Positions 2,173 through 14,572 of a DNA stretch of 64,000 nt are shown here, in pieces. The stretch is taken from positions 1-64,000 of the IMG/VR virus record IMGVR_UViG_3300022562_001644. One strand, written 5' to 3'. This stretch comes from a virus. The notes under the pieces are model-generated. The model made no database searches and had not been told where the DNA came from. It saw nothing but the letters and a program-made list of their open reading frames with translations. Made by a program: the position numbers and the translations under genes. The first letter of the stretch is position 1; each line of letters begins with the position of its first letter.

Positions 2173-2743
2173 CCTCACCAAGGCCACCATCCTAAACGAC
2201 AACTGCCAGGAGCACGGCTCGAACCTCTACGCCCTCGAGGAGGGAGGCATCTACTGCATCAACGGTCACATGGTCGGCCAGGGCTACGGCAAGGGCATTA
2301 AGTTTGATGCAGCGGACTACTACGACACCGACGATGGAAGAGAAGTGCTCAGCCACTCTTCTCTGGAGGATGCTCTTGAGTACGTGCTCGACAATGCCTG
2401 GGAGAAAGACCGGACCTGGGACGACGTCCTCGACGAGCTATGCCCCGTCACAGTCTTCGCGTTCAGAAGGAAGGAGCTCGACAAGGGAGTCGCAAGGCGT
2501 GTCGCAGAGGATGTTATTGAACGCTTCGAAATGGATTTCTGGTACGAGGAATACGGTGATTTCGATGGCAATCATCTTCCCTGGGAGGGCAAAAATAAAG
2601 CGGCCCTAATCGACGATATGACAGCCGTTCTGGAAAAGCACCTGGCCGACGTAAAACCTTGGCAGTGCGAAGTTGTGACAACAGCAGAGTTCACGAAGGA
2701 AGAGGTCCGTGAGCTCATGAAAGGGTATTTGGAGGAATCGTAA
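2159..2743 (+). CDS. hypothetical acidic protein, 194 aa
   Basis: No family is recognised. The protein is acidic and rich in Asp/Glu/Trp/Tyr, probably alpha-helical in its second half. An N-terminal CQEHGSNLYALEEGGIYCINGH has two Cys and two His that might coordinate zinc. SD AAAGGAGGGAG precedes ATG 2159. The gene is operonic with both neighbours. Confidence 0.6.
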   Translation: MNKPDLTKATILNDNCQEHGSNLYALEEGGIYCINGHMVGQGYGKGIKFDAADYYDTDDGREVLSHSSLEDALEYVLDNAWEKDRTWDDVLDELCPVTVFAFRRKELDKGVARRVAEDVIERFEMDFWYEEYGDFDGNHLPWEGKNKAALIDDMTAVLEKHLADVKPWQCEVVTTAEFTKEEVRELMKGYLEES

Positions 2744-3090
2744 TGCAAGACATGAGATACGAATCAGTTGAGTTCGAAGATGACTTCATGAAGTGTCCGA
2801 GCTGCAATGAAATTTACTTGCACCAGGACAAGGTTGAGGTTTGGCAGAGATTTGAGGAGGACGGCCCAGGGCGACACACAACCATTTCACATGGAGGTGA
2901 TGAGCTTCTGGATGTGATAGACCCAAGACCTCCCCACAGAAGAGACACCATCAGAATCCATTTCTACTGTGAGCACTGCCACGCCGGTGAGGATGCATGG
3001 GATGGCACGCCTCATGTTCTTGAGATCTACCAACACAAGGGTCATACCCTCGCCAACTGGTATGTGGATGGCGAAAGAAAGCAGCCATGA
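2743..3090 (+). CDS. zinc-ribbon-like hypothetical protein
   Basis: This 115-aa protein contains CPSCNEIY near residue 18 and CEHCHAGE near residue 75, two CxxC knuckles in zinc-ribbon spacing that enclose a beta-rich, charged region. The function is unknown. ATG 2743 follows GGAGG by about 6 nt. Confidence 0.6.
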   Translation: MQDMRYESVEFEDDFMKCPSCNEIYLHQDKVEVWQRFEEDGPGRHTTISHGGDELLDVIDPRPPHRRDTIRIHFYCEHCHAGEDAWDGTPHVLEIYQHKGHTLANWYVDGERKQP

Positions 3091-3455
3091 AAAACATCGA
3101 ACTAGCAGAGAAGATCAACGAATTCACACGCTCCATCGTGAGCGCCACGGCAAAGGGGGAGTTCCCCGAAGACTTTAGAGAGGACGTCCGGCAGCTAACG
3201 AACTCCATCATGTTAGCTCTTGACGGAAAGGATTTGGCGGACCTGGCGAATGTCCTGAACCTTCTTGAGACAACAAAGGCGTACCTCTCCATTGCTGCAA
3301 TATCAAAACCCAGCAGGGACAAGGAGGTGCTCGACTTTACGTGCCAGGAAGTGATCACAAACTGGATTGCAATCTTCCTCTACATGACAAGACTGAACCC
3401 AGACTTGGATATAGCTGCCATTCTAAAAGAAAGCGCTAGGAGGATGAGAAAATGA
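3087..3455 (+). CDS. hypothetical helical protein, 122 aa
   Basis: The protein is predominantly helical with no recognised domain. It overlaps both neighbours by 4 nt (ATGA), so translation is probably coupled. Confidence 0.55.
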   Translation: MKNIELAEKINEFTRSIVSATAKGEFPEDFREDVRQLTNSIMLALDGKDLADLANVLNLLETTKAYLSIAAISKPSRDKEVLDFTCQEVITNWIAIFLYMTRLNPDLDIAAILKESARRMRK

Positions 3456-3679
3456 ACGACGAAGAAGAATTCGATCACGACCTATGGGACTCGGTTGTCT
3501 GCAAAGCTCGCAAAGATGGCGAGTTTGTATTCAGCGTCGATGACATTCCGTGGGTAGAGAAAATGACGGGAGTAACCTCGCTGGGATCGAGGGAGTGGTT
3601 CACTGGAGTGACCCTCTACGGCATCCCGGTGCGGATTGAGGAGGAAGCGGATGGGCGGCAAACCCAGGGTGAAGCCTGA
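3452..3679 (+). CDS. small acidic hypothetical protein, 75 aa
   Basis: No family is recognised. The N-terminus is strongly acidic (MNDEEEFDHDLWDS). The sequence DGEFVFSVDDIPWVEKMTGV looks like a helix-capped fold but is not diagnostic. The gene overlaps the preceding stop by 4 nt. Confidence 0.5.
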   Translation: MNDEEEFDHDLWDSVVCKARKDGEFVFSVDDIPWVEKMTGVTSLGSREWFTGVTLYGIPVRIEEEADGRQTQGEA

Positions 3680-3890
3680 GCCTGGCCAACGAGACCAATG
3701 CTTCGCGGTCACCGCGGCCGGCGGGATTGGTATCAAGCTGGTCCTTGAGACGACGCCACCGAGGTCGAAGATTGAGGCGGCCAGGATCATCAAAGCCAGC
3801 TTCAAGCGGCTGGGCACTCCAGTCGAGCAGCGTACGCCAGGAGGCATTAAAGCCCTCCGGCTCGACGTCATCTACAAGGATGGGACCTGA
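3651..3890 (+). CDS. small basic hypothetical protein, 79 aa
   Basis: ATG 3651 is preferred over an earlier in-frame codon because GAGGAGGAAG lies just upstream. The protein is basic, with KIEAARIIKASFKRLG probably a helix and a beta-strand tail (ALRLDVIYKDG). Function unknown; it overlaps its neighbours. Confidence 0.5.
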   Translation: MGGKPRVKPEPGQRDQCFAVTAAGGIGIKLVLETTPPRSKIEAARIIKASFKRLGTPVEQRTPGGIKALRLDVIYKDGT

Positions 3891-4252
3891 TGAGTGAATT
3901 CAGTGTGGAGGAGTTCAGGAAGGCTGTGGAGGAGATCGACAGGATCGTCGCCAGAGATCCGCAGCTCATGTTCCGCAAGGACCGAGAAGCCGCAAGGCAG
4001 GAGGACATCAAGGAAAGGCGGGGGTTCCTGGTTCTTTCCCCCGAGCTTCAGATTGTCAAAGAGCTTGACCCGGAGGGCATGATCTTGGAGAAAGATGGCC
4101 AGGAGTACCGGGTCATTGTCGACCCGCGTCTAGTGGGCATGACGAGCAGTGCAACAGGGGAGCCGATTCATGGCTGGTGGGTGCCGCCGATTGCCATGGA
4201 CATCAAGCCGATGGGGCCATTCACCGTACTCGATGGAGATAGAAAAGATTGA
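3890..4252 (+). CDS. hypothetical protein, 120 aa
   Basis: An N-terminal charged helix is followed by beta-rich sequence (EYRVIVDPRLVGM...GWWVPPIAMDIKPMG). No family is recognised. The start overlaps the preceding TGA (TGATGA), and the stop overlaps the TTG start of the next ORF. Confidence 0.55.
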   Translation: MSEFSVEEFRKAVEEIDRIVARDPQLMFRKDREAARQEDIKERRGFLVLSPELQIVKELDPEGMILEKDGQEYRVIVDPRLVGMTSSATGEPIHGWWVPPIAMDIKPMGPFTVLDGDRKD

Positions 4253-6843: not shown

Positions 6844-7225
6844 GCCCCTCAACGGAGCAGAGCGCAAGCCACCCAAGAATGGCCAAAGCGGAGACAGCGT
6901 CGTCGACGTGCGAACCGTTCCGACTGGCACGCTCATTTACAACCTGGTCTTGACCGGGAGCAAGGAGCTCGGTGCCAGAGCGATGATTCAACAGCTCGAG
7001 ATGATGAAGGTGCAGCAGAAGATGGTGGCTGAGCCTCCTGAGCTGGCTGCGATGAGGGCCGAGCATGCAAACCTGGAGAATGCCAGGTACGTTATGGCTG
7101 CCGAGCTGAACGCCCGCTTCAAGGACTTTGATGCAGCCTTCGCAGCACGTCGCGGCATCGAGATGCATGAGCCCGGCGAGCTCGCATCGGAGCCCCCCAA
7201 GGAAAACTCTGGTGGCGAAGGCTAG
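6818..7225 (+). CDS. hypothetical protein, 135 aa
   Basis: A Lys/Gly-rich disordered N-terminus is followed by a helical region (MIQQLEMMKVQQKMV, ENARYVMAAELNARFKDFD) and an acidic tail. No family is recognised. It overlaps the preceding gene by 26 nt. Confidence 0.5.
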   Translation: MTLTDKNGKPLNGAERKPPKNGQSGDSVVDVRTVPTGTLIYNLVLTGSKELGARAMIQQLEMMKVQQKMVAEPPELAAMRAEHANLENARYVMAAELNARFKDFDAAFAARRGIEMHEPGELASEPPKENSGGEG

Positions 7226-7598
7226 CTGCGGCTGTCCGTCGTCCCCGGCTGGAGTCCTTCACACCTTCGAGTGCCAGATGAGCAAGCAGGGCCACGTTGG
7301 CTTTGCGTCGCCGGCGATGCGTGCTGCGGGGATCCCAATACACGAAATGCCGGACATGCCAATCGCAAGGAACTTGGGCTCAGACCTGGACCCATGGGAC
7401 AAGGGCATCCTGGTCAACCTGGTGATGATGGAGCTCAAGCTCACGCAGCTTCGCAGCGGAAAGGCAGGGAAGATTCCAAGCAACGAGCTGCTCCTCGAGC
7501 ACGTACGAGCAGTTCTTAACAGGTTCAGAATGAACTACAGCAGACCGCTTATGGCCGAGCTCGTCCAGCGAGTGGCAAAGGAGATTCACGGTGGGTAG
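7212..7598 (+). CDS. hypothetical helical protein, 128 aa
   Basis: GTG 7212 is favoured because AAGGA lies about 9 nt upstream. The longer frame overlaps the previous gene and reads as shadow. CGCPSSPAGVLHTFEC sits at the N-terminus; the C-terminal half is helical (LVNLVMMELKLTQLRSGK). Function unknown. Confidence 0.5.
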   Translation: MAKASCGCPSSPAGVLHTFECQMSKQGHVGFASPAMRAAGIPIHEMPDMPIARNLGSDLDPWDKGILVNLVMMELKLTQLRSGKAGKIPSNELLLEHVRAVLNRFRMNYSRPLMAELVQRVAKEIHGG

Positions 7599-7959
7599 AG
7601 AGAAGGTAGAGAAGGTCCTCGTAACCGGTTCACGCAAGTGGACCGACCCTGAACCCATCTTCCGGGTTCTTGACGAGCTCGACCCCGACATCGTCATTCA
7701 TGGAGGAGCGGATGGCGCGGACCTCATTTCTCACCAGTGGTGTAAGAAGAGGGGTCGAAGGGCGCTTGTCTTCTTCCCCGACTACAGCAAGAAGGATGGG
7801 CCATTGAGCCCCCCTCTTCGACGCAACCTGGACATGATCGACGAGAGACCAGACGTCGTGGCAGCATTCCCAATGCCAGACAGCCGTGGGACCTGGTTCA
7901 CGGTCAAGGAGTCGACGAAGGCCAACATCGAGGTCATCATCACCAAAGGAGAGTACTGA
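7591..7959 (+). CDS. SLOG-fold (DUF2493-like) protein
   Basis: The protein opens with VLVTGSRKWTD, continues with IVIHGGADGADLISHQW, and has RRNLDMI downstream. This is the signature order of the DUF2493/YspA branch of the SLOG (Smf/DprA-LOG) Rossmann-like superfamily, whose members bind nucleotides or nucleotide-derived ligands. At 122 aa it is a complete single domain. GTG start with AAAGGAG upstream. Its phage role is unknown. Confidence 0.75.
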   Translation: MGREKVEKVLVTGSRKWTDPEPIFRVLDELDPDIVIHGGADGADLISHQWCKKRGRRALVFFPDYSKKDGPLSPPLRRNLDMIDERPDVVAAFPMPDSRGTWFTVKESTKANIEVIITKGEY

Positions 7960-8057
7960 TGTGCATGTGCGGAGGAGTCGTTGAGGTTGGAGCCGTCGCA
8001 CTTGTGGCGGCTTTCTTTGTGAAGGTCTGGAGGAAGATGCGTGGACGAGTATCCTGA
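7959..8057 (+). CDS. very small membrane protein, 32 aa
   Basis: ATG 7959 overlaps the preceding TGA. The core GAVALVAAFFVKVW is hydrophobic and is followed by a basic tail (RKMRGR). AAAGGAG lies upstream. It resembles the micropeptides at 907 and 21841. No function can be assigned. Confidence 0.45.
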   Translation: MCMCGGVVEVGAVALVAAFFVKVWRKMRGRVS

Positions 8058-8238
8058 GTTGGAGGTTCCGCATTGCGTCATCAATTCGACGGTGCCGCCA
8101 GGACAGTTTGAGTGTCGGAATTGCGGGAAGACCTACTTGCCGGCGTTGCCCTGCTCGATTGACATGTACCTGGCAATGGCAAATTCGTTCATGAAATCGC
8201 ACAAGAACTGCGAACCAAAGGAGGTGACAGATGGCTGA
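8041..8238 (+). CDS. zinc-finger-like hypothetical protein, 65 aa
   Basis: The protein contains CRNCGKTYLPALPC and a C-terminal HKNC, fitting a C2H2- or C4-type knuckle. GTG start at 8041; the gene overlaps the micropeptide upstream and the next gene downstream. Confidence 0.5.
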   Translation: MDEYPELEVPHCVINSTVPPGQFECRNCGKTYLPALPCSIDMYLAMANSFMKSHKNCEPKEVTDG

Positions 8239-8644
8239 GCCCAAGCTGGTCATCTACCACGATGCTGTCGAACCTGGCCTCATCGTGAAGAGCTACATCG
8301 GCGGGGAGGAGATATGCAAAAGAACTATCTCTGATCTAGATATTCTCAAGTGCCAGAACCACAGAGACCTATCCGAGCTCATCTGCAACGTTGCCATGGA
8401 GGTTGCGGAGAAGTCTGGGATGAAATGGCAGGAGGTTGCAAACGCGATGGCCAGTGATGTACTTGAGTCTTGGAGGCCGAAGCCGACGCTCCGGGAACGC
8501 GTGAACGAAATCCTAGACGAGGAGTACAAGCCCAAAGGCTTCATGGACAACTTCTTTCACCAGCTTGGGAAGGCCATGGAGAGGAAGGCGGAGGTCGATG
8601 GCATCACCATACCCAAGGCAATCGTCGTCAAGGAAAAGCCATGA
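8231..8644 (+). CDS. hypothetical protein, 137 aa
   Basis: A beta-rich N-terminus (KLVIYHDAVEPGLIVKSYIGG) is followed by helices. The pattern is not diagnostic of any family known to me. AAAGGAGGTGAC precedes ATG 8231. Confidence 0.55.
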   Translation: MAEPKLVIYHDAVEPGLIVKSYIGGEEICKRTISDLDILKCQNHRDLSELICNVAMEVAEKSGMKWQEVANAMASDVLESWRPKPTLRERVNEILDEEYKPKGFMDNFFHQLGKAMERKAEVDGITIPKAIVVKEKP

Positions 8645-8668
8645 AATGCAGTTAACCAGGAGCGAACC

Positions 8669-8830
8669 ATGGACCCGAGAAAGCACCGACCTAAGACACC
8701 CGAGCAAGAAAGGCTCGACGGTGAACGCGGAATGGACCCTAACTATCATCGCGCGCGAGAGCGAAGCCCTGAGCAAGAGAGGCTCGACTGGGAAGAGGGT
8801 ATCCGCGACCAGGGGGATAGCGACCGATGA
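8669..8830 (+). CDS. small charged protein with internal duplication, 53 aa
   Basis: ATG 8669 has AGGAG 7 nt upstream and the stop overlaps the next ATG. The sequence contains the repeated phrase PEQERLDGERG / PEQERLDWEEG, an internal duplication spaced 25 residues apart. It is highly charged and probably helical or disordered; function unknown. Confidence 0.5.
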   Translation: MDPRKHRPKTPEQERLDGERGMDPNYHRARERSPEQERLDWEEGIRDQGDSDR

Positions 8831-9195
8831 AATGCAGCAAGAAGTCCTGTGAAAAGGACGCGGACGATGAGAAAGTTCTCTTCGATGAAGACGGAAAGTC
8901 TTACGCCACCTGCGACTCCCATGCGAACGAAGAGCTTTCGGGCGATGAGCTCAAGGATGGCGCGGAGCGGTACTGCCCGACGTGCCGCGGAGAAGGCTTC
9001 GTCGAGGTCGACAGAAGACATGCCTGCACCGTCCCCCTCGAGGATTGTTGCGGGGGTTGTTACGATTCCGAGCCGTGTCCCGACTGTGGGGAAGAGGAGC
9101 CAGAACCAGACTGGGACTCTATCCGGGAGGCTCGCGAAGAGGCTCGCATTGAAGAGGCTAACAATGCGGAAGTGGATTGGGAATCGCCCTATTAG
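8827..9195 (+). CDS. Cys-rich protein with DnaJ-like zinc knuckles
   Basis: A 122-aa protein with CPTCRGEGFVE and C-terminal CCGGCYDSEPCPDCGEE, resembling the CxxCxGxG knuckles of DnaJ zinc domains, plus an N-terminal CSKKSC. The tail is acidic and helical. No J-domain is present, so a chaperone role should not be assumed. Confidence 0.6.
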   Translation: MKCSKKSCEKDADDEKVLFDEDGKSYATCDSHANEELSGDELKDGAERYCPTCRGEGFVEVDRRHACTVPLEDCCGGCYDSEPCPDCGEEEPEPDWDSIREAREEARIEEANNAEVDWESPY

Positions 9196-9212
9196 GACTA
9201 ACGCCAAACCGT

Positions 9213-9218
9213 TAGACT
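9213..9218 (+). promoter_or_regulatory. leaderless -10 element TAGACT
   Basis: TAGACT ends 6 nt before ATG 9225, so transcription would begin at or next to the A of the ATG. The same geometry recurs upstream of 33592, 34002 and 56068 (6 nt) and 28196 (7 nt). The -35 region is poor here. Confidence 0.5.
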
Positions 9219-9224
9219 CGTCGG

Positions 9225-9671
9225 ATGATTATCTGGCTCACCGGCATTCCGGGCGTGGGGAAGATATTTATCGCACACGCCTTGCGCGACATGCTGAGAA
9301 ATGGCCGACCGGCTCAGGTCGTTAACGCCAGTGAAGTTCGATATTTCCATCACCCAGACACGGCCCCATCTGTTGAAGAGCAGGTGGCGACTGTTGCCTG
9401 GGTAGCTCATCTCTTGGCAAGCAATGACATCACGACCATTGTGTCGTGTGTGTCCCCGATCAAAGAGCAGCGCGATGCAATTCGGCATCGCTCGTTTGAT
9501 CACGGAATCCCATTCTATGAGGTCTGGGTAGATGCGGGAGGATCATCGAGGTACCTCAAGAGGAAATTTCAATACGAGCCGCCCGAGCTCCCAGATGCCA
9601 GGGCATTCATCACACAATTTGGCGGGTGGGAAACCATCGCTCGCCAAGTGCTATCGGAGTTGGACCTATAA
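9225..9671 (+). CDS. adenylylsulfate-kinase-like P-loop protein
   Basis: The N-terminus MIIWLTGIPGVGK matches the CysC-type Walker A, but the Ser/Thr after Lys is Ile (GKI), which weakens nucleotide binding in most P-loop kinases. VVNASEVR and TTIVSCVSPIKEQRDAIR occupy the positions of the acceptor-site and lid-preceding motifs of APS kinases. At 148 aa it is shorter than full CysC. There is no SD; the start follows a leaderless promoter. The substrate is unknown; a sugar, nucleotide or nucleic-acid end is possible. Confidence 0.6.
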   Translation: MIIWLTGIPGVGKIFIAHALRDMLRNGRPAQVVNASEVRYFHHPDTAPSVEEQVATVAWVAHLLASNDITTIVSCVSPIKEQRDAIRHRSFDHGIPFYEVWVDAGGSSRYLKRKFQYEPPELPDARAFITQFGGWETIARQVLSELDL

Positions 9672-9672
9672 G

Positions 9673-10377
9673 ATGAACGAACAAATAAACCTAAACACAG
9701 ATCTGCTGATAGAGGCAGACGGGGCTTCCCCCCTCCCTCTTTCGCCCGGAGGAGGATGCTTCAGCGGCGAGATGGAAGTGCACTTCTCGGGGATTGAGGA
9801 TGTTCTGGCTCGAGAGATCCAAAATGCTGGCGCCGTTTTCGGCGTTGTCGCATGGCTGACCAACGAAAGATTGCTGGATGAGCTGGCTGCCAAAGAGGTG
9901 GCATCAATCATCGTTCAAAAAGAAGACTTCCTGCGACCAGAATCCCTGGATAAGCATCCGACGAAAGAACGCCTTCGCTCTAAGTACGGAGCCGTAAAGG
10001 GTGGTTGGAGATTCGACAAACTACCCGCGCCGATCCATGGAATGAGCTGTGCGCTCGATGCCACGATAGAAGGGGTTCGATGTGCTGGCGTTTACGATGA
10101 TTACGTCCGAGTTCATCATAAGTTCGCAGTATTCGCTCGGCACATTCGTGGCGGAGGTGACTACGATCAATGCGACGCCTACGAGCCATACGCTGTTGCG
10201 ACGGGGTCATATAACTGGACTAACAATGCCAACAGGAGCAGGGAAAACCTTGTTCTCATACACAACCCCGATGTAGCAGAGTGCTACTTCAAGGAGTGGG
10301 CTCAAATCTGTGCCATCTCTGAGTCTCTGGACTGGGAGTGGGAATACATCGAACCCCAGTGGAGGATCGGTACTTGA
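9673..10377 (+). CDS. PLD-superfamily phosphodiesterase-like protein
   Basis: The 234-aa protein has VHHKFAVF followed by ATGSYNWTNNANRSRENLVLI, the HxK...GS-x-N order of phospholipase-D-like nucleases such as Nuc. Only one HxK is present, as in enzymes that dimerise to form the active site. The canonical Asp of HxKx4D is Ala. Longer starts read back into the kinase-like gene. It could act on nucleic-acid ends; its neighbours are a kinase-like and a HAD protein. Confidence 0.65.
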   Translation: MNEQINLNTDLLIEADGASPLPLSPGGGCFSGEMEVHFSGIEDVLAREIQNAGAVFGVVAWLTNERLLDELAAKEVASIIVQKEDFLRPESLDKHPTKERLRSKYGAVKGGWRFDKLPAPIHGMSCALDATIEGVRCAGVYDDYVRVHHKFAVFARHIRGGGDYDQCDAYEPYAVATGSYNWTNNANRSRENLVLIHNPDVAECYFKEWAQICAISESLDWEWEYIEPQWRIGT

Positions 10378-10934
10378 TTCCTCCAAGCGAAAACACCAAC
10401 CCCAACCAGGATCTATACGCCATGGGCTACAAGCGCACCCTTTGCATCGACTTTGATGGAGTCCTCCACTTCTACGGAGACGGCTGGAAAGGTCCGACCG
10501 AGATCTACGACATTCCCGTCCCCGGAGCCATCGAGTGGCTCAAGAGGCTTCTTGCCTTCATCGGGCCGAACAACGAGCAACCCTTCGAAGTTGCCATCTA
10601 CTCAAGCCGCTCCAAGCATGAGGGCGGGGTCGAAGCCATGAAGAGCTGGCTGCTCTACCACGGCCTGGGCGAGATCGCCCTGGAGTGCATCATCTTCCCG
10701 ACACAGAAGCCAGCGGCTTGGATTACCATCGACGACCGCTGCTTCCAATTCCGCGGCGTGTTCCCGTCTCCAGAGTATTTGCTTGGGTATGAGGCCTGGA
10801 ACAAGCGTCCGATTGCGGAGAGCATCGGGAACGATGTCCGAACCCTTCGGGAGATCGCCGACACCTACAAGCAGTTTCCTGAAATACAGGATCGCCTGGA
10901 GCGGATCGCCAACGAGCTCGAGGGTCAGCGCTGA
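10374..10934 (+). CDS. HAD-superfamily hydrolase
   Basis: TLCIDFDGVL is HAD motif I (nucleophile and general-acid Asp), AIYSSRS fits motif II, and WITIDDRC fits the Asp-containing motif IV. The family usually removes phosphate from small molecules or nucleic-acid 3' ends. TTG 10374 is chosen because GTGGAGG lies 8 nt upstream; ATG 10422 is the alternative. Confidence 0.7.
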   Translation: MIPPSENTNPNQDLYAMGYKRTLCIDFDGVLHFYGDGWKGPTEIYDIPVPGAIEWLKRLLAFIGPNNEQPFEVAIYSSRSKHEGGVEAMKSWLLYHGLGEIALECIIFPTQKPAAWITIDDRCFQFRGVFPSPEYLLGYEAWNKRPIAESIGNDVRTLREIADTYKQFPEIQDRLERIANELEGQR

Positions 10935-11632
10935 TGCACACCAGAGTTGAGACCACGGACAAGGGTCCAGTTCACATTGTTCTGCCCGATGACCATGACC
11001 CCAGGGAGGGCGTGATCATCTACCTGCATGGCTGGAACTTGGGCAAGAAAAAGGGCGACTGGTACGTCGACCAGGTCTGGGAGGAGTTCGGCCTGGAGCG
11101 CAAGCTCGAGCTCTCTGGCTCGAAGGCCGCTCTCGTGGCCATCGCCACCCAAGACGGCAAGGGACGACCGCGGTACTGGGAGAGCCTAGAAGAGCTGCTC
11201 GAGCTCGTGACCTGTCATCTGCCGCCTAGCTGGAGGACGGATTATTGGGTGCATGTGATTGGTCACAGCGGTGCCTGGGCGAATTCCGTTGCCTGGCTAG
11301 AAAGCGACCAGCTTAACCACCTCACGCTGCTGGATGCGATCTATGGAGGAGCGAATCACTTTCGTGACTGGTCGCTTCAGCCTGGGAGGTACCTAGATAT
11401 CGGCGTCAACCATGGATCTGGCACCCACAAGAAGGCGTGGCAGATCATCAAGGAGCACCCCTCCTATCATGTCTGGGGCGTCATGCCGGATCTGGATGCC
11501 AAGCTTGAGACATGTGGAATGGTCTACATGCCGATCAAGCTTGGACACATGGAGTGGGTGAACAAAGACGATCCGTTCGCATTGTTTGCGAAACGGTCGG
11601 CTGCGATTCGCTCGGGAATGGAGGGGAGATGA
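10934..11632 (+). CDS. alpha/beta-hydrolase-like protein
   Basis: The 232-aa protein has IIYLHGWN (oxyanion-hole strand), VIGHSGAW (GxSxG nucleophile elbow) and a late GHMEW that could supply the catalytic His. The fold is consistent with an esterase, lipase or peptidase. The substrate is unknown. The ATG overlaps the HAD stop, so it is co-translated with the phosphodiester/phosphate-processing genes upstream. Confidence 0.65.
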   Translation: MHTRVETTDKGPVHIVLPDDHDPREGVIIYLHGWNLGKKKGDWYVDQVWEEFGLERKLELSGSKAALVAIATQDGKGRPRYWESLEELLELVTCHLPPSWRTDYWVHVIGHSGAWANSVAWLESDQLNHLTLLDAIYGGANHFRDWSLQPGRYLDIGVNHGSGTHKKAWQIIKEHPSYHVWGVMPDLDAKLETCGMVYMPIKLGHMEWVNKDDPFALFAKRSAAIRSGMEGR

Positions 11633-11805
11633 GTAAACCTAGAAGAAAAGTACTGTGTCAAATTGGCCCCACGAAAGATCCTAAATGGATGGAGATTGGA
11701 ACAGCGTTCGAGAACAAGGACGGGTCGCTCAACATCTACTTGGATGCATTGCCGTCAGAGGGTCGGCTAAGGGTCGACAAGCTACAGGAAGGTGAGAAGG
11801 CGTGA
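11629..11805 (+). CDS. small conserved-type protein, 58 aa
   Basis: The core KWMEIGTAFENKDGSLNIYLDALP resembles short phage/plasmid proteins with a W-x-x-IGTA...KDGS pattern of unknown function. Probably a small beta barrel. It overlaps the hydrolase stop. Confidence 0.6.
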   Translation: MSKPRRKVLCQIGPTKDPKWMEIGTAFENKDGSLNIYLDALPSEGRLRVDKLQEGEKA

Positions 11806-12029
11806 GTGAACCTTCGATGATTCTGTGGTGCGTGTACTACAAGCCGAAGGATTGGCCACATGGGTACATTGCCCGCCGGCATGATATTTATCCTGGCGAA
11901 TCAAGGGCTACGGAAGAAGTCATAAAGGCTGATTCACTGGAGAGCCTTCGCAGACTACTACCAGAAGGTCTTGTCTGCATTGCACGTCACCCAGATGATG
12001 AGCCACAGATCGTGGAGGTTTGGCTTTGA
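11802..12029 (+). CDS. hypothetical protein, 75 aa
   Basis: A beta-rich start (MILWCVYYKPKDWPHGYIARR) precedes a helix and a LVCIARHPDDEPQIVEVWL strand pair. The pattern suggests a small alpha/beta protein; no family is assigned. GTG start overlapping the previous stop. Confidence 0.55.
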   Translation: MSEPSMILWCVYYKPKDWPHGYIARRHDIYPGESRATEEVIKADSLESLRRLLPEGLVCIARHPDDEPQIVEVWL

Positions 12030-12502
12030 GTGAGAAGGGACTGTTCGAACAACTAAACGACATACTTCCAAGCCGCATGTATGAAGTCCGTGTGCCACCC
12101 GAGAGGTACTCGGGCTTTCGTTTTGGGGATAAGGTTACAGGGCATGACGTTGTCCGGGATCCAGACGAAGCCATCAGGCTGCTGAATCGTGTTGAGCTAA
12201 AGAACCCACCGTTTCCAATTTCGTTTGATTGTCACGATGAGGATGGCTACATCGAGGTCAGGGTTACCTCGGAGCTAAAGGCTAGGGATACAGGTGAGTT
12301 CTGGCGTCAGGTTGCGTTCTTTTCAATTACGCTTCCGGCGCCAGCACCGTTCATTGTTTTCTCTCTTGAGAAGGCTTTGCGCTCGGTGTTTATGCATGAG
12401 TTTGAAGAGTGCTTCCACTTCGAGGGGAGGCGTGTTCATGAGCCTCACCCAGGAGGCTCTCCAATGATTCACGAATACGACAGAGCCGGCTATCGGCGGT
12501 AA
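12026..12502 (+). CDS. hypothetical protein, 158 aa
   Basis: TTG 12026 is chosen because GGAGG lies 7 nt upstream and it overlaps the preceding stop. Beta-rich with PPFPISFDCHDEDGYIEVRV and a C-terminal helix containing HEFEECFHFEG. No family is recognised. Confidence 0.5.
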   Translation: MSEKGLFEQLNDILPSRMYEVRVPPERYSGFRFGDKVTGHDVVRDPDEAIRLLNRVELKNPPFPISFDCHDEDGYIEVRVTSELKARDTGEFWRQVAFFSITLPAPAPFIVFSLEKALRSVFMHEFEECFHFEGRRVHEPHPGGSPMIHEYDRAGYRR

Positions 12503-12511
12503 GGAGAAGCG

Positions 12512-14572
12512 ATGGAGTTGAAGGTAATTGAGGGAGGGGCTCTGAGAGAACCCAGCGGTGACTACATCAAAGACACATTTGGCAATGGAGGGCATCTGGC
12601 AAAACTGATCTCTGGCTACGAGCCACGAGACGGCCAAATCAAGATGTCTCGGATGATCGACAAAGGCATCCGCGAAAACACACACATCATTGCAGAAGGG
12701 CCGACCGGAACGGGCAAGAGCCTGGCTTACTCGGTGCCGGCGTCCTATCACGCAGCCCACAGCGGCAAGCGGGTGTGCATTGTCACGGCGAATAAGAACC
12801 TGCAGCGACAAATCTACGAGAAGGACTTAAAGACCCTGAGCGATGCTGTCCCGTGGCGGTTCACCTATGCCGTTCGCAAGGGAATCAACAGCTACCTGTG
12901 CATGAGGGACTTCGACAACGAGAAGTATCGCGAGCTGCTTTCCGGGGGAGGCTTCTCTCTGGAAGAGGAGCAGCTCATCCGGGAAACGGCTGAGTGGGCA
13001 GAGAACACTCGGACGGGCGATTTCGAGGAAAGCCCTGGCCCTGGGTACAAGATCTGGGGGAGCTTCGCCACAACCCGGGAGGACTGCACAGGTCGCAAGT
13101 GTGGTTGGTTTCAGGAGTGCCACGTCAAGGCCGCCAAGGAGCGGGCAGACATGGCAGATATCATCGTCACGAACTATCACCTTCTCTTTGTTCACCTCAA
13201 GCTCGGTGAGGCCTCCAAGGTTCTCCCTGACTTTGACGTGGTCATTCTCGACGAGGCTCACAGGGCGGCAAAGACGGCACGAGATTTCTTCGGAGAGGAG
13301 GTGACATGGGGGTCGATCTATCGGTGCGTGACCAACATGCACATGGTGGAGCTCAGTGGCTACAAGGCTAAGGGCGCAAAGCTCAGAGAGGACATCCTGA
13401 ATGAATCTAGAAATCTCTGGACGGGACTTGCTGCTCGAGCCCGGGACAGGAAGGCCATCATCGATCCAGGTTCCCCCCTGAGGAGCCAGCGACTTGAGGA
13501 GCTACTCGAGCAGGCTGCGGACTACTACACCGAGGTAGCGAACAAGATGACCGGGCCGAGGGCTCATCACAGGGCCGAGGCGCATCGGACGGCCGTTGCG
13601 GATAACTATCTGAGCCTTGCGGACAAATGCAAGGAACGGAGGGAGGTCCTGTTTCAGTTCCGAGATGCAACGATGAAGGGGCTTGTCTTCTTCATCGAGG
13701 GTTCCGGCCAGGAGGAGAAGGGTAAGTGGGTCAAGCTCAAGTCGAAGGCGGTTGACGTTGGCGGCTACATGCACCACGCACTCTTCAAACGCTTCCCGAC
13801 GGTGGTGCAGACCTCGGCGACCCTTGCAATTCGCGGTGGTGGAAAGTCGAACTTCGAGTATGTCCGTCGAGAGATGGGCATGAATGGGATCGACAACATC
13901 GCCGAGATCACCGTGGACTCACCCTTCAACTGGGCCAAGCAGGGTCTCCTAGTCATCCCCAAGTCGATGCCGGAGTACAAGTACGGTGACGATTCCTGGG
14001 ACAAGGAGATCTGCAAGCACGTCGAGAAGGTGGTCAACCTGGTCGGTGGTCGGACGCTGGGACTGTTCACCAGCTTCCGGATGATGCGCATGGCGGCTGA
14101 GCATCTGAAGAAGACCACGGGATACAAGATCTACACCCAGGGCGACGCGACAAACCGCGAGCTCGCGGAGAAGTTCCAGGCTGAAGTCGGCTCTATTCTT
14201 CTCGGAACGGAGTCTTTCTCGGAGGGTGTGTCGATTGAGGGTGAGGCATGTAGCTGTGTGATTCTCGACAAGATTCCGTTCATCACCAAGAACGACCCGG
14301 TGATGTATGGCATCGAGAAGAGGCTAAAGGCGCAGCGGTCGAGGATGAGCTCGTTCGAGACCTACTCGTTGCCGGAGGCGATCATCAGCTTCAAGCAGAG
14401 GGTAGGCCGGCTCATTCGGACTGTGAACGATGTCGGTGTGGTGGTGGTCCTCGACAAGAGGCTTCACACCAAGCGGTATCGCCACCAGTTCATCAAGAGC
14501 GTGCCGTTCGACCGGGTCCACGACGACATTGCGGACATAAGGCCGTTCCTCAAGAGGGTCGGTGCGTTGTAG
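12512..14572 (+). CDS. DinG/XPD-type superfamily 2 helicase
   Basis: This 686-aa helicase has GPTGTGKS (Walker A, residues 63-70), VVILDEAH (DEAH, 247-250) and the late FKQRVGRLIR motif VI. Cysteines at about 130, 192, 197 and 203 lie between motifs I and II, where XPD/DinG enzymes bind a 4Fe-4S cluster. The family unwinds DNA 5' to 3', including R-loops and damaged or recombining DNA. The length agrees with DinG. It is probably part of phage replication or repair. Confidence 0.85.
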   Translation: MELKVIEGGALREPSGDYIKDTFGNGGHLAKLISGYEPRDGQIKMSRMIDKGIRENTHIIAEGPTGTGKSLAYSVPASYHAAHSGKRVCIVTANKNLQRQIYEKDLKTLSDAVPWRFTYAVRKGINSYLCMRDFDNEKYRELLSGGGFSLEEEQLIRETAEWAENTRTGDFEESPGPGYKIWGSFATTREDCTGRKCGWFQECHVKAAKERADMADIIVTNYHLLFVHLKLGEASKVLPDFDVVILDEAHRAAKTARDFFGEEVTWGSIYRCVTNMHMVELSGYKAKGAKLREDILNESRNLWTGLAARARDRKAIIDPGSPLRSQRLEELLEQAADYYTEVANKMTGPRAHHRAEAHRTAVADNYLSLADKCKERREVLFQFRDATMKGLVFFIEGSGQEEKGKWVKLKSKAVDVGGYMHHALFKRFPTVVQTSATLAIRGGGKSNFEYVRREMGMNGIDNIAEITVDSPFNWAKQGLLVIPKSMPEYKYGDDSWDKEICKHVEKVVNLVGGRTLGLFTSFRMMRMAAEHLKKTTGYKIYTQGDATNRELAEKFQAEVGSILLGTESFSEGVSIEGEACSCVILDKIPFITKNDPVMYGIEKRLKAQRSRMSSFETYSLPEAIISFKQRVGRLIRTVNDVGVVVVLDKRLHTKRYRHQFIKSVPFDRVHDDIADIRPFLKRVGAL

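Follow-up and report, generated by a model that had tools for sequence, protein, structure and literature searches.

The Gene Run and Its Setting

The window analysed here, i.e., the whole stretch of DNA under study, comprises bases 1-64,000 of the 91,958-base virus record IMGVR_UViG_3300022562_001644. Judged by its sequence, the phage lineage is isolated: a near DNA search with bases 1-25,000 against a phage collection gave no near match, and the large terminase has a best identity of ~27% among the phages listed. The features discussed below are collected in Table 1.

Table 1. Genes and other features of the locus
Feature	Coordinates	Strand	Description
Candidate leaderless start	9202..9224	+	TAGACT box ending 6 nt before the ATG at 9225; no Shine-Dalgarno sequence
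Kinase-like P-loop protein	9225..9671	+	148 aa, short APS-kinase-like form; Walker A GKI (Ile14); NASEVR replacing NADxVR
PLD-fold protein	9673..10377	+	234 aa; split motif H148-x-K150(x)27 G178-S-x-N181, E191; Ala155 at the Asp position
HAD-type hydrolase	10422..10934	+	170 aa; DFDG, SSR, K and DD motifs by eye
Alpha/beta-hydrolase-like protein	10934..11632	+	232 aa; Ser112, Asp134, His205
DNA helicase	12512..14572	+	phrog_2488 (2.8e-57); belongs to the closely spaced same-strand run

The original prediction placed four enzymes side by side at this locus (kinase-like, PLD-like, HAD and hydrolase) and treated them as one unit. The four ORFs are real and intact, lie on one strand with gaps of 1, 44 and -1 nt, and the enzyme classes hold. 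Adjacency and common orientation were thus borne out, but the genes form no conserved set (see below), and the closely spaced same-strand run extends past position 11632 and through the helicase gene, so that a "unit" of four genes is arbitrary. Third-position GC of the ORFs is, in order, 0.60, 0.56, 0.77 and 0.72, a mild sign of mixed origin. A single-sequence scan of viral contigs confirmed no relatives of the helicase.

Just upstream of the kinase-like gene, positions 7591-7959 encode a SLOG-family (YAcAr) protein (Pfam, 1.8e-11). A Pfam search of 60 ORFs from positions 1-34,500 also revealed DUF5131, a PolB-type exonuclease, RecT, thymidylate kinase, a PD-(D/E)XK nuclease, SNase and a sigma-70 region 4 protein.

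The run had further been predicted to start from a leaderless promoter. Boxes of the TANNNT type are found 4-9 nt before the start of 8 of the 97 called genes, compared with 2.2% of 3791 control ATG/GTG codons (binomial, 0.0014), the gene starts in this count being mechanical calls; among genes without a Shine-Dalgarno sequence, 6/44 have the box, and in two of the eight a Shine-Dalgarno sequence is present as well. The eight genes start at 9225, 17045, 28196, 31734, 33592, 34002, 41756 (minus strand) and 59198 (minus strand); TAGACT occurs among their boxes three times and TAGAAT twice. The enrichment, suggesting leaderless promoters across the phage, agrees with the box and the lack of a Shine-Dalgarno sequence at 9225, but a sigma-70 consensus scan of positions 7200-12600 found no promoter. 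We regard the leaderless start at 9225 as a plausible candidate.

A PLD Family with a Split, Asp-Less Motif

The PLD-like protein matches the PLDc_2 profile (9.1e-7; 29.2 bits, cut-off 27), and its AlphaFold2 model (pLDDT 83) adopts the PLD fold; together with the HxK and GSxN motifs, this places it in the PLD superfamily. The top fold matches are tied: Nuc (1byr, Z 15.8), NucT (6ehi, 15.7), FAM83B (15.6) and phospholipase D 7e0m (15.4). Zucchini (13.3), SauUSI (12.7), NgoAVII (10.6) and BfiI (10.2) score lower. Since Nuc and NucT tie with FAM83B and a phospholipase D, the fold alone is no proof of a nuclease, and the tie counts against that reading. FAM83B is described in a passage of PMC5714352 as lacking the catalytic His, which the window PLD family keeps. 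The PLD signature given in the same passage, HxK(x)4D(x)6GSxN, has 11 residues between HxK and GSxN; the window protein departs from it in both the Asp and the spacing.

A single-sequence scan located relatives at 7 viral loci; an alignment search brought the viral total to 21 and added 26 bacterial loci, which are scattered over several phyla. The motif was tallied in 48 sequences (the 47 loci plus the window; the proteins of L002 and L003 are the same and both were counted), one of which, L052, has no readable motif. In the 47 readable copies, the position of the Asp in HxKx4D is occupied by C (22), A (12), G (7), S (2), L (2), T (1) or V (1), and never by D. The substitution of this Asp by Ala had been predicted correctly, but it is not unusual: its absence throughout makes it a trait of the family, and we reject the view that the active site is damaged.

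The distance from HxK to GSxN in the family is 17 to 73 residues, mostly 23-35. At the lower extreme, L043 (17 residues), GSxN is probably mis-assigned; the upper value comes from L026, and the open frame of L037 ends before GSxN. The spacing from GS to Glu is 13 residues in 45 of 46 sequences. In an alignment of 40 sequences, His148, Lys150, Gly178, Ser179, Asn181 and Glu191 are invariant, as are, among other columns, A60-W61, T63, Q82, E84 and W221. The family thus resembles the single-domain PLD nucleases Nuc and NucT in fold, HxK, GSxN and Glu, and differs from them in the missing Asp, in a motif spacing of mostly 23-35 residues where those enzymes have 11, and in conserved AW-T and Q-E motifs and a Trp (W221) of its own.

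A similar arrangement is described for AgaP, a PLD nuclease of haloarchaeal Argonaute systems: according to passages of PMC11442185, about 50 residues separate its HxK from GSxN, and a mutant changed in the acidic residue that occupies the Asp position stays toxic. Going by those passages, both proteins have the split motif and AgaP can do without this acidic residue, whereas the halves of the motif are ~27 residues apart in the window protein and ~49 in AgaP. The setting here is one of phage replication, with no Argonaute partner among the neighbours read at the PLD loci.

In phages, tblastn with the PLD-like protein returned one weak record (24.5% identity, 8e-5). In the phylum to which the L052 genome belongs, a search of 282 genomes with the family profile gave 8 matches at E 1e-5 (1 strong, 7 weak). 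Titles and abstract openings in the literature matches listed contained nothing on this PLD family or on a phage APS pseudokinase.

Genomic Neighbourhood of the PLD Family

Clustering of the neighbours at the 47 PLD loci revealed no companion family in more than four loci. Many of the neighbours picked at viral loci are primases, helicases, exonucleases, Sak4 or methyltransferases. A PHROGs scan covered the viral loci other than L007 and L008, the bacterial loci lying outside it, and 18 of the 21 viral loci were counted, without L003 (a duplicate) and the two contig-end loci L007 and L008. The largest gene within two positions of the PLD gene falls into the DNA, RNA and nucleotide metabolism class at 13 of these 18 loci, compared with 3 of 18 (L024, L025 and L026) for the largest gene five to seven positions off (Fisher p 0.002, or 0.011 when two related loci are dropped); since the near results were already known when the rule was chosen and near genes are larger, the association is only suggestive. 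Methyltransferases, which PHROGs classes as "other", did not score as members of the class, and two of the far genes (L014, L018) are of this kind. The near exceptions are L006, L013, L021, L022 and L024; at L021 and L024, a further gene close to the PLD gene is RuvC-like or a thymidylate synthase gene. Viral PLD copies mostly adjoin replication and DNA-metabolism genes, at the suggestive level just stated.

Bacterial PLD genes have varied surroundings, which counts against a role in replication. By eye, intron/transposase, relaxase, recombinase or restriction specificity genes neighbour the PLD gene at L030, L035, L040, L046 and L048. The bacterial copies may ride on mobile elements.

A Kinase-Like Protein Lacking Two Motif Residues

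The kinase-like protein matches Pfam APS_kinase (1.8e-14, 54.5 bits) and, by sequence, the APS kinase (CysC) structure 2yvu (E 3.5e-15), so that a shared P-loop fold is predicted from sequence; it reaches 50.1 bits in the apsK equivalog search, against a cut-off of 138.7. In a comparison with eight APS kinases, three features are missing from it: the Ser/Thr of Walker A, the DGD motif and the KGLY...FTG segment. The Walker A reads GIPGVGKI, confirming the predicted GKI in place of GK[ST]; the kinase active site is indeed unusual, and the change is larger than first noted because NAD has also become NAS.

Relatives were not confirmed in a single-sequence scan of viral contigs with this protein, and tblastn in phages gave nothing useful. 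A first viral-contig scan retrieved 38 relatives, all with GK[ST]; three of these (L097, L101 and L114) are of a short form without the KGLY...FTG segment, L097 and L101 looking identical. A second scan, whose patterns accepted any residue after GK and either NAD or NAS, retrieved at least 71 relatives. Among the short-form matches listed (n = 75), GK[ST] is present in all (GKT in 71, GKS in 4), the motif Asp is kept in 74 and the KGLY...FTG segment is missing from 74, so that its absence is a feature of the family; NGD occurs in three, DAD in two, and no motif was recognised in one. Compared with these matches, GKI and NASEVR were both seen in the window protein only. A DNA pattern search specific for GKI gave two matches, each within an unrelated long ORF.

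The window protein shares the short form and the NAxxVR motif with the short phage APS-kinase-like proteins (L097, L114, L118-L189), and differs from them in GKI and NAS, where the others have GK[ST] and the motif Asp. Descent from these proteins is the best explanation of the sequence relation and of the missing segment. The Walker A Ser/Thr binds Mg. With this residue and the motif Asp both missing, the protein is best seen as a probable pseudokinase or nucleotide-binding protein, i.e., catalytically dead or repurposed. The Ile codon of GKI is ATA, one base from a Thr codon, and both changes come from one sequence; a recent mutation or a sequencing error is therefore possible.

Two of five phage records annotate proteins of the short family as "kinase". 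In L100 (3884-4957) and L114 (3983-4774), an APS-kinase-like domain is followed by what looks by eye like a nucleotidyltransferase domain (GRFQPPHLGH and GRWQPWHAGH, respectively). In L097, a sulfotransferase-like gene (2681-3922, by eye) directly precedes the short kinase-like gene and could supply a PAPS-like role.

The HAD and Alpha/Beta-Hydrolase Proteins

HAD motifs I-IV are DxD, S/T, K and D/DD. All four are present by eye in the HAD protein and look intact, in keeping with the HAD superfamily, and it seems able to act. The only Pfam match is HAD_SAK_2, below the cut-off (E 0.029), and a PDB sequence search gave one match (E 0.8). Matches were found in nine phage records, with identities of up to 43%; one of these proteins, from Gordonia phage Nithya, is annotated as a polynucleotide kinase. 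Compared with phage HAD proteins of phrog_23773 and phrog_1238, the motifs are alike by eye, with no notable difference.

The hydrolase carries a GHSGA motif and, in order, a Ser-Asp-His triad, assigned by motif, whose three residues are invariant in an alignment with six relatives (seven sequences); this protein, too, looks able to act. Its structure model has a pLDDT of 36.6. Family-profile searches (PADLOC, Pfam and PHROGs among them) returned no family match, a PDB sequence search and tblastn in phages and in plasmids gave nothing useful, a single-sequence scan of viral contigs confirmed no relatives, and a search of six genomes found none. Of 282 genomes from the phylum to which the L052 genome belongs (contig titled Myxococcaceae), 12 gave a match to the hydrolase, two of these matches being weak (~2.5e-4), one with internal stops; none was found in 299 genomes that share their phylum with a Phenylobacterium genome. 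This distribution may hint at the phage host, no more.

No Conserved Co-Occurrence of the Four Genes

The four proteins had been proposed to make up a joint end-processing or small-molecule modification set, with conserved synteny as the check. Synteny was assessed, as far as the isolation of the lineage allowed, by tblastn on 188 fetched loci, and no conserved synteny was observed among them. None of the 51 PLD-matching loci among them also matches the kinase, HAD or hydrolase protein, so the conserved co-occurrence of parts expected of an end-healing set is lacking. A search of the 92-kb record for three ligase or 2H phosphoesterase families (PF09414, PF13563, PF01068) found none of them. 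Within the 188 loci, a single kind of linkage joins two of the four genes, namely a fusion in two viral contigs, L085 (4001-4882) and L087 (1-891), in which a related HAD (~35% identical) follows a full APS kinase; these are the only 2 of 116 kinase-matching loci that also match the HAD protein. Many of the 188 loci span 8-16 kb, so linkage over a longer distance could exist. A conserved four-gene operon is rejected on the co-occurrence and neighbour-family counts.

Discussion

Our preferred reading, held with moderate confidence, is a patchwork of independent cargo: a Nuc/NucT-like PLD protein, a probable pseudokinase or nucleotide-binding protein, and a HAD protein and a hydrolase that are both predicted to be active. 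It is supported by the absence of a recurrent neighbour family, the lack of co-occurrence and the differing third-position GC; the kinase-HAD fusions speak for some coupling and count against it. That the four genes form the set proposed originally, enzyme-like proteins though they are and encoded side by side, we consider very improbable, given the co-occurrence result, the absence of the three ligase or 2H phosphoesterase families searched for and the degenerate kinase, and a four-gene pathway is not supported. A functional pair of kinase and HAD, serving the metabolism of nucleotides, nucleic-acid ends or sulfate and leaving the PLD protein and the hydrolase as bystanders, would account for the fusions and for the annotation in phage Nithya. 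We think it unlikely: the fusions contain full-length APS kinases rather than short ones, joint matches are rare, and in the window the PLD gene separates the two genes and the kinase is without two of its motif residues.

The PLD family might instead be a defence or counter-defence nuclease of phages and mobile elements, like AgaP and the restriction PLD enzymes. Its scatter over bacterial phyla, the mobile-element and restriction genes seen by eye near several bacterial copies, and the presence of SauUSI, NgoAVII and BfiI among the fold matches fit this alternative. Yet PADLOC gave no match up to E 0.1, so membership in its defence systems is not supported; a conserved partner is absent, and viral copies mostly adjoin replication genes. 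A defence role is, in our estimate, rather doubtful.

Within the patchwork, the PLD-like protein is a probable nuclease of a widespread family, judging from its motifs and modelled fold. It would act like Nuc and NucT, as a homodimer: His148 would attack the phosphodiester and thereby form a phospho-histidine intermediate, Lys150, Asn181 and Glu191 would complete a metal-independent active site, and the substrate would be nucleic acid made in phage replication or recombination. A bolder and quite improbable proposal sees in the PLD protein the type of a widespread nuclease family, split in its motif and devoid of the Asp, with a role in phage DNA replication or recombination, and in the neighbouring pseudokinase a regulator of a HAD phosphatase like those that other viruses fuse to APS kinases.

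Of the leads from this locus, the PLD family with its split, Asp-less motif and its place next to phage replication genes is the most useful. If our reading is right, HxK...GSxN can be split and devoid of its Asp across a whole family, the kinase-like protein is a phage pseudoenzyme, and a nuclease family that includes members from several bacterial phyla would be tied to phage replication.
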